Shown: positions 13,549 to 14,051 of the stretch, one piece after another
Layout of the letters: each line of letters starts with the position of its first letter
How positions within the stretch are numbered: position 1 is the first letter of the stretch
NCBI RefSeq assembly: GCF_016924655.1
Contig: NZ_JAFFJU010000001.1
Coordinates: forward strand, 186,001-250,000
DNA: 64,000 nt
DNA from: Sphingomonas arenae
GTDB lineage: Bacteria; Pseudomonadota; Alphaproteobacteria; Sphingomonadales; Sphingomonadaceae
Reading direction: 5' to 3'
Made by a program: the position numbers and the translations under genes
The notes under the pieces: generated by a model
Database searches by the model: none
Told to the model about the DNA's origin: nothing
What the model saw: the letters and a program-made list of their open reading frames with translations, nothing else

Positions 13549-13602
13549 GGGCGCGGGAAGTAGCAGATGGGGTGGGTTCCGCAAGCAATCGACGCTCGCT
13601 AC

Positions 13603-13656
13603 ATCCTCCCCGCATTTCCGCGGGGAGGGGGACCGTGCGCAGCACGGTGGAGGGGT
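13603..13656. repeat. Two-hairpin repeat, left boundary of the DUF559 unit
   Basis: A 54-bp element made of a CTCCCCGC/GCGGGGAG hairpin (8-bp stem) followed by an ACCGTGC/GCACGGT hairpin (7-bp stem), ending in GGAGGGGT. Its inverted partner is at 13998-14049. The outer and linker bases are identical between the two copies; only loops and inner stem bases differ. Confidence 0.9.
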
Positions 13657-13664
13657 TCTTGGCA

Positions 13665-14051
13665 ATGACCGTGACGAGGGCTCGACAACTACGCCGCCAA
13701 ATGACAGCTCCCGAGGTGAGGCTCTGGTCGCAGCTGCGGACGCGCCCTCTCGGCTTCAAGTTCCGGCGGCAGCATCCGTGCGGCCCTTTCGTATTCGACT
13801 TCTTCTGCAGGGAAGCCGGCCTCGCAATCGAGATCGACGGGTTTGCGCATGAAACCGGCAATCGATACGCGCGGGATCAGCAACGCGACGAGTGGTCTCG
13901 GCAGCGAGGAATTGCCACCCTGCGATACACGGCACGGGAAGTGGGTGAGAACCTGGAGGGCGTGGTGGCACACGTCCTTGATCTATGCGCGCAAAGGACC
14001 CCTCCACCGCCTTCGGCGGTCCCCCTCCCCGCGAAGGCGCGGGGAGGATGA
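13665..14051 (+). CDS. DUF559-domain (Vsr-like/PD-D/ExK fold) protein
   Basis: A 128-aa protein of the DUF559 family, which is related to very-short-patch-repair and restriction-type endonucleases. The core is visible: N-terminal ARQLRRQMTAPEVRLWSQLR, then FKFRRQHPCGPFVFDFFC and LAIEIDGFAH (the acidic active-site core), then an Arg/Asp-rich helix and ATLRYTAREV. The gene starts 8 bp after a two-hairpin repeat. Its last 17 residues (112-128) and stop codon lie in the inverted partner repeat. It is unrelated in function to plsY and murI on either side. DNA cleavage has not been shown here. Confidence 0.85.
   Translation: MTVTRARQLRRQMTAPEVRLWSQLRTRPLGFKFRRQHPCGPFVFDFFCREAGLAIEIDGFAHETGNRYARDQQRDEWSRQRGIATLRYTAREVGENLEGVVAHVLDLCAQRTPPPPSAVPLPAKARGG
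13998..14049. repeat. Two-hairpin repeat, right boundary of the DUF559 unit
   Basis: This 52-bp element is the inverted counterpart of 13603-13656. On the minus strand it reads CTCCCCGCG/CGCGGGGAG, then ACCGCC/GGCGGT, then GGAGGGGT. The inner stem of the second hairpin differs from the left copy on both sides (GTGC/GCAC against GCC/GGC), which keeps pairing. It overlaps the DUF559 stop and the murI start. Confidence 0.9.

Follow-up and report, generated by a model that had tools for sequence, protein, structure and literature searches.

An inverted pair of hairpin-plus-mirror-tail repeats around a DUF559 nuclease gene in Sphingomonas arenae: a candidate two-part element analogous to RAYT-REP

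Between the divergent genes plsY and murI, the genome of Sphingomonas arenae carries a small gene that is enclosed by two inverted copies of a structured repeat. The locus raises the question of whether the gene and its repeats belong together and, if they do, what kind of unit they form. The window referred to here is the whole stretch of 64,000 nucleotides that was analysed. A preliminary description of this DNA, which placed the unit correctly between plsY and murI, had proposed a nuclease-linked analogue of the RAYT-REP systems. The best reading of the comparisons presented here is a nuclease-repeat partnership that is analogous, but unrelated, to RAYT-REP. At a rough probability of 0.6, it represents a single copy of a selfish-type element with two parts, the DUF559 nuclease gene and the structured repeat that is cognate to it, which would be copied through the action of the nuclease.

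The left repeat (13602..13656, + strand) opens with a pyrimidine/purine hairpin, hairpin 1 (13605..13628, +), whose core purine arm is GGGGAGG. This is followed by hairpin 2 (13632..13648, +), which has a C-GCA-G triloop on its G-rich strand, and by a purine tail (13649-13655, +) that reads GGAGGGG, faces the gene, and is the mirror image of the purine arm of hairpin 1. The right repeat (13998..14050, - strand) is an inverted copy with different hairpin stems; its purine tail lies at 13999-14005, its hairpin 2 at 14006..14020 (C-GAA-G triloop on the G-rich strand), and its hairpin 1 at 14024..14047, all on the - strand. In both copies, hairpin 2, with a C-GNA-G loop, is placed between hairpin 1 and the tail, and the mirror tail is a third element that the preliminary description lacks. 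Either strand of the repeats forms the two hairpins, and the repeat pattern has two matches in the window and none in 100 dinucleotide shuffles, which bears out the inverted two-hairpin repeats reported earlier around this gene. The paired stem changes described between the two copies also hold on a wider scale, since a simple pairing rule distinguishes 57 different stems among the 150 matches listed of 185 in 61 genomes; the constant linkers of those 185 matches are a consequence of the search pattern, which fixes them.

The enclosed gene (13665..14051, + strand; 128 aa) matches the DUF559 profile PF04480 (E 4.4e-26), in agreement with its first assignment, and its 3' end lies, as had been noticed, in the right repeat, which contains the last codons and has the stop at its edge. 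Repeat-encoded protein C-termini (proline-rich tails) are frequent, and are seen in many units, among them those at window positions 13998-14051 and at loci L046, L047, and L002. Conserved residues of the window protein are D45, E56, D58, and H62; among 183 full-length unique domains, the corresponding catalytic residues are D in 183, E in 182, D in 183, and H in 181. The nearest solved structures to the predicted fold (pLDDT 87.6) are NGO0050 (3hrl) and the homing endonuclease I-Bth0305I (3r3p), followed by PvuRts1I and AbaSI. By sequence and modelled fold, the gene product belongs to the PD-(D/E)XK/Vsr-like family and is a predicted nuclease. Purifying selection is observed in most pairs tested (pN/pS 0.15-0.43 in ten of twelve); of the remaining two, one is identical and the other, the recent pair L046/L051 of genome G019, differs only at amino-acid-changing sites.

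Nucleases of the Vsr/EDxHD type (YcjD, NGO0050, I-Bth0305I, and VsrA) share with the DUF559 proteins a common fold and near-invariant acidic and His residues, whereas a tie to flanking repeats is undescribed for them in the accessible text of the literature. The YcjD profile detects Vsr (PMC1189080, accessible portion). Caulobacter VsrA, which has a DUF559 domain, is required for the DNA damage response upon loss of cytosine methylation (PMC12907096, accessible portion), and this role in vivo means that the DUF559 family can act on DNA. Matches to the protein occur in 2 of 50,697 phage records and 42 of 72,556 plasmid records, and phage or plasmid carriage was rejected; identity as a known defence gene was likewise rejected on a short, weak DpdF match only.

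The host genome (2.76 Mb) holds three DUF559 genes, each boxed by an inverted repeat type of its own. At the other two genes (C2:253522 and C2:255951), the inverted repeats belong to two additional types, with lengths of 50 and 41 nt and 90% complementarity. In a test for the mirror tail, the six flanks of the three genes score 1.00 in five cases and 0.75 in one (right of L001). An inverted pair of the window type without a gene, with a spacer of 31 nt, is located at C2:716275.

DUF559 genes elsewhere are also regularly flanked by inverted repeats, a prediction of the preliminary description that is upheld in all four sets of loci compared. The flank score is the best inverted match between the 220 nt upstream and the 220 nt downstream of the DUF559 domain, with a threshold of at least 20, and the control is the same score at random positions of the same loci. 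Inverted flanks are found at 45 of 58 DUF559 genes of relatives, against 6 of 1042 random positions (60 loci, two without flank; the weak place G004:C1:2313566 was left out), and several of the misses in this set are weak matches within large other proteins. The figures for the class are 41 of 58 against 4 of 772 (from 59 loci, of which one lacks a flank; restricted to places at about 1e-24 or stronger), those for named records from many groups 58 of 80 against 14 of 1436 (the best 80 of at least 560 confirmed stretches), and those for new loci across the phylum 13 of 26 against 4 of 567. The four sets share a few loci and are hence kept unpooled. The random-position rate of 0.5-1.0% across the sets rules out chance or general repeat abundance as the cause of the flanks. 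Controls across loci are weaker: 16% of mismatched pairs reach 20 in the named-records set, and in the relatives set the best mismatched partner often equals or outscores the true one, owing to repeat types common to several loci or to orthology. Four of the five loci from the plasmid collection are without an inverted pair (scores 11-12), and three of those four (two of E. coli and one of Azospirillum) have repeats on one side only. At the fourth, the DUF559 gene of N. gonorrhoeae (L309), BoxC-like repeats flank the gene left and right, but as direct and not inverted copies. The records NZ_CP141089, NZ_OL790696, and NZ_CP119142 are chromosome-sized E. coli and N. gonorrhoeae records filed as plasmids.

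The type of repeat is matched to the type of protein. DUF559 proteins fall into two types, with R-F-W-N near the C-terminus (FW) and without it. Over all sets, the window-type repeat is found at 0 of 138 FW proteins and at 22 of 45 others, a contrast that partly reflects taxonomy. Within the genus, it stands at 0 of 17 FW loci and 22 of 25 other-clade loci (p 4.5e-9); this test covers 42 of 45 loci (L033, L062, and L063 were left out as weak matches within other proteins), counts L042 (F-T-N) as FW, and uses a repeat pattern slightly looser than that of the all-sets count. In genomes with both clades, the window type is at no FW gene in 7 of 7 and at every other-clade gene in 6 of 7, the remaining genome (G033) having it at one of two (L048 is without it). 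The other-clade genus loci that do not have the window type are L029, L030, and L048; at the last two of these, the two-hairpin repeats differ in their linkers. Within genomes, repeat type follows protein clade.

Repeats of the window type also occur apart from the gene. The pattern that gives 185 matches gives none when reversed as a control. Among the 150 matches listed, 17 neighbouring (+,-) pairs lie 300-460 nt apart, each (by eye) around a DUF559 place, and the close pairs within 120 nt comprise 14 in (+,-) orientation versus 3 (-,+) and 1 (--). The fourteen gene-less pairs have spacers of 0-57 nt (nine at 17-21 nt) and hairpin stems that differ from one another. Solo repeats, about which the preliminary description had asked, exist alongside these REPIN-like pairs. 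Across the genus, a DUF559 match is present in 18 of 21 genomes with the window-type repeat and in 2 of 16 without it (one of the two a weak match), and three genomes (G008, G017, and G028) carry the repeats without DUF559.

Multiple copies of a single unit are found in G019, where four copies, full to partial and 92-97% identical, stand at four places, and where the same two different arms accompany the gene. A fifth DUF559 unit of this genome is present as halves at the two ends of contig C1 (L285, L286), and the assembly probably broke within the repeat. Four of the five units (L046, L051, L058, and L285/L286) lie between outer palindromes of the TGTCCGCTTTCNACCC...GCGGACAT type; a larger segment, about 590 bp, was therefore copied in this genome. 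Many units stand at conserved places in several genomes, and movement would therefore be rare or occasional. The plsY-murI interval, whose emptiness in sister strains had been raised as a point in favour of mobility, has no DUF559 gene in 27 of 30 genus genomes examined (of 37), and the unit is present in three (the host genome, G011, and G030). Among the 27 sites without the gene, the interval does not exceed 183 nt in 20, and in the other 7 it contains 0.8-1.2 kb of unrelated sequence. Flanks at plsY-murI are too diverged for a clean junction or target duplication to be read there.

Many FW-type genes have flanking repeats that conform to the layout published for the E. coli TM/BoxC repeats (PMC4666352, accessible portion), which links the DUF559 genes to a known class of repeats. 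The preliminary description mentions neither this shared layout nor the presence of the gene in E. coli K-12. BoxC/PIT/TM repeats number 23 copies in MG1655, including five inverted pairs, and occur in more than 260 prokaryotes; a single strand of the E. coli TM forms a triplex in vitro, and genetic mobility activities are stated never to have been found beside these repeats (accessible portion of PMC4666352). The words "DUF", "endonuclease", and "ycjD" are absent from the main text of that paper. BoxC/PIT/TM repeats have the same pyrimidine arm, purine arm, and purine tail as the DUF559 repeats, form inverted pairs, and vary between E. coli strains, but they are described, in the same accessible text, without any partner gene. 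The window copies differ from them in their shorter core arms and in a second hairpin before the tail, so that the literal consensus CCCTCNCCCN3-6GGGNGAGGGN3GGGNGAGGG is not matched by the window repeats (by reading). The canonical BoxC-like pattern occurs at 4 places in the host genome, all on contig C2 and none in the window.

The mirror tail is found on the expected side of most hairpins compared. In 340 hairpin flanks (from 199 loci, a few of which occur in more than one set), a mirror purine tail is present on the gene side only in 205, on the far side only in 32, on both sides in 23, and on neither in 80. For 278 asymmetric arms, the mirror reading wins 163 times and loses 42 times, with ties in the rest. 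Both window repeats score 1.00 (a 7-nt core, with hairpin 2 inside the gaps, which are 20 and 18 nt long); shuffled arms reach at least 0.88 in 19.7% of draws, which makes single cases weak and leaves the set of 340 flanks to carry the test. With a purine arm and a mirror-image tail, a single strand of the repeat could fold either as a hairpin or as a triplex. There is thus good support, in the genus of the window and across its phylum, for a partnership between DUF559 genes and repeats that face inward and consist of a hairpin and a mirror tail.

Strict DUF559 matches (E <= 1e-20) and canonical BoxC repeats co-occur in 249 phylum genomes, with both present in 44, DUF559 only in 29, the repeat only in 13, and neither in 163. 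The odds ratio is 19 (p 3.5e-18), and the association persists within families at a z of 5.67. Canonical BoxC is absent from 29 of 73 strict DUF559 genomes, and strict DUF559 is absent from 13 of 57 BoxC genomes. One genome (G391) has 83 BoxC copies and only a weak DUF559 match, and another (G320) has 24 copies and no match. Stable DNA mini-hairpins are the basis for reading C-GNA-G loops as a sign of single-stranded DNA. A GNA loop is present in 94 of the 150 window-type repeats listed, 89 of these with a C-G closing pair, and CGNAG occurs 122 times versus 8 for its complement; comparison of DNA and RNA energy models gives no separation of GNA from other triloops. A known RNA element was also considered and rejected: no Rfam family reaches its gathering score, and the best chance match has 19.8 bits against 80.

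In E. coli K-12 (MG1655p, L310), the DUF559 gene is ycjD (PF04480, E 1.4e-49), which stands between sapF and fabI and has BoxC-type repeats downstream only. The coordinates listed for TM number 9 are those of what we take to be the ycjD-fabI place. The TM number 9 sequence itself (Table 1 of PMC4666352, accessible portion), which numbers 16, 19, and 22 share, is found in L310 in the interval from ycjD to fabI. At the sapF-fabI position, ycjD alternates with the eef operon (PMC12817139, accessible portion). Strains without ycjD (L311, L312) have efflux-pump genes beside sapF, oppositely oriented. An E. coli genome used as a control has a Y1_Tnp match and no DUF559 match, and may be a strain without ycjD. 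A ycjD query is held at 80% or more in 3361 of 5426 E. coli genomes, as against matches to a 50-nt BoxC query in 5100 of 5426 (1-7 places each), so many genomes without ycjD keep the repeats. In E. coli, gene and repeats co-exist, and the repeats are on one side of ycjD only.

Individual BoxC places vary between E. coli strains. The pstB-pstA stretch is held at 80% or more in 2089 of 5426 genomes; in one genome read without it (L321), a 92-bp segment is missing that ends in the 8-bp direct repeat AACCGTGT, and the difference can equally be an insertion with duplication or a deletion between direct repeats. At yjdP-phnP, an inverted pair, one copy, or none is present depending on the strain, and the difference at alx-sstT is a deletion between repeat arms. 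The inverted BoxC pairs of MG1655 at alx-sstT, ygfF-gcvP, and fepB-entC have a common spacer of 27-28 nt. A further such pair lies at gldA-yijF (L368), where the stretch is held at 80% or more in 621 of 5426 genomes, and two other strains read there have a different sequence. Given the common spacer and the polymorphic pair, whole pairs with their spacer are dispersed units, like REPINs.

In the proposed mechanism, the repeat would fold when single-stranded (e.g., on the lagging strand), the nuclease would recognise its own repeat type in this folded state and nick there, and repair or replication would then copy the bounded segment elsewhere. The autonomous form would be the gene-bearing units, with a length of about 0.45 kb, and the short-spacer inverted pairs and solo repeats would be their non-autonomous relatives, as REPINs are to RAYTs. 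In common with the RAYT-REP/REPIN system (REPtron), the DUF559 units have a nuclease-type gene within palindromic repeats, inverted pairs that enclose a short spacer and no gene, repeats that stand alone, and a repeat type matched to the protein type. The analogy first suggested therefore stands as far as the genome anatomy goes; that the nuclease recognises, cuts, and moves its repeats is what we infer from the likeness. The enzyme differs, in that DUF559 is PD-(D/E)XK/Vsr-like and not HUH/Y1, and the DUF559 repeats have a mirror-image purine tail. The GTAG tag is absent (by reading) from 13602-13656 and from the reverse complement of 13998-14050. With enzyme and tag both different, the unit is not a RAYT-REP member. 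The CGTC-tagged REPs of alphaproteobacteria are also palindromic and are said to lack a dedicated transposase, but with their 8-9-bp stems and CGTC tag they are not the repeats seen here (PMC3733652, accessible portion). A tie of the DUF559 family to the repeats described here was not found in the open-licence literature, to the extent that its text is accessible.

The same anatomy could arise in other ways. The gene alone might be selfish, as in homing, with the nuclease cutting gene-less pairs and repair copying the gene into the spacer. The nearest solved folds include a homing endonuclease, I-Bth0305I, and the gene occupies exactly the place of the spacer in gene-less pairs, in the same orientation. 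However, the 27 of 30 relatives without the gene have no window-type repeat pair at plsY-murI (24 of them are without any of four short repeat words, and 3, with intervals of 940-1242 nt, have one or two isolated words), and in G019 the copies bring both of their different arms with the gene. Homing is for these reasons an unlikely account. A Vsr-like repair enzyme, or genome guardian, would have the repeats as substrates or by-products (replication-stalling hairpins), and clustering would be a side effect. The dependence of the Caulobacter DNA damage response on VsrA and the detection of Vsr by the YcjD profile both speak for such a role. Yet a repair enzyme would need neither a matched, two-sided repeat type that differs by protein clade within one genome nor units in multiple copies, and this account is regarded as improbable, more so than homing.

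Two further explanations leave the nuclease out of the process. In one, another enzyme (RAYT/Y1 or IS) moves the repeats and DUF559 is a mere passenger, for which the link of GTAG REPs in other bacteria to RAYTs (PMC3733652, accessible portion) offers a precedent. Against it, searches with the Y1_Tnp profile (this profile only) give no Y1/HUH transposase match in the host genome, in G019, G030, G025, G032, and G011 (15-24 window-type repeats each), or in 35 of 37 genus genomes, and the DUF559 link holds across clades and the phylum; this explanation is very unlikely. In the other, the repeats merely serve to terminate transcription or stabilise RNA and happen to be common around small genes, a view that their nature as GC-rich hairpins in intergenic DNA would fit. 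Such flanks are, however, found at only 0.5-1% of random positions in the same loci (a control of positions, not of other small gene families), the mirror-image tail is a DNA-triplex layout, and PIT/BoxC is reported to show neither promoter nor terminator activity (PMC4666352, accessible portion), which leaves this the least probable explanation, with only the slimmest of chances.

The nuclease-repeat partnership remains the preferred reading, and a broader proposal may be built upon it more tentatively, at somewhat short of even odds. DUF559/YcjD may be the long-missing mover of the BoxC/intrastrand-triplex repeats, and would represent a Vsr-like class of mobile element, unrelated to RAYT-REP, that reads folded single-stranded DNA (a hairpin, or a triplex with GNA-loop hairpins) and copies any segment between two repeats that face inward; E. 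coli K-12 would be a living case of it. Known since the 1990s, the BoxC/PIT/triplex repeats coincide with unstable places in the E. coli genome. Their tie to one nuclease family (ycjD in K-12) provides a candidate cause for their hitherto unexplained spread, and one that is testable in a laboratory strain. If the proposal is true, DUF559, still named as a domain of unknown function, would gain a function, and REPIN-like repeat populations would have arisen with an unrelated enzyme.

A close pair of genomes (G045 and G051) differs by four indels of at least 18 nt, all of which belong to other sequences or repeat families, and no window-type insertion polymorphism is seen among them. Near positions 66579 and 99058 of G051:C3, compared with G045:C50, a 106-bp MITE-like element and a palindrome repeat of the CTTCGACAAGCTCAGG type differ by presence or absence. 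Repeats of the CTTCGACAAGCTCAGG type are also found (by reading) in the plsY-murI interval of L111 and L113 and, in part, of L115.
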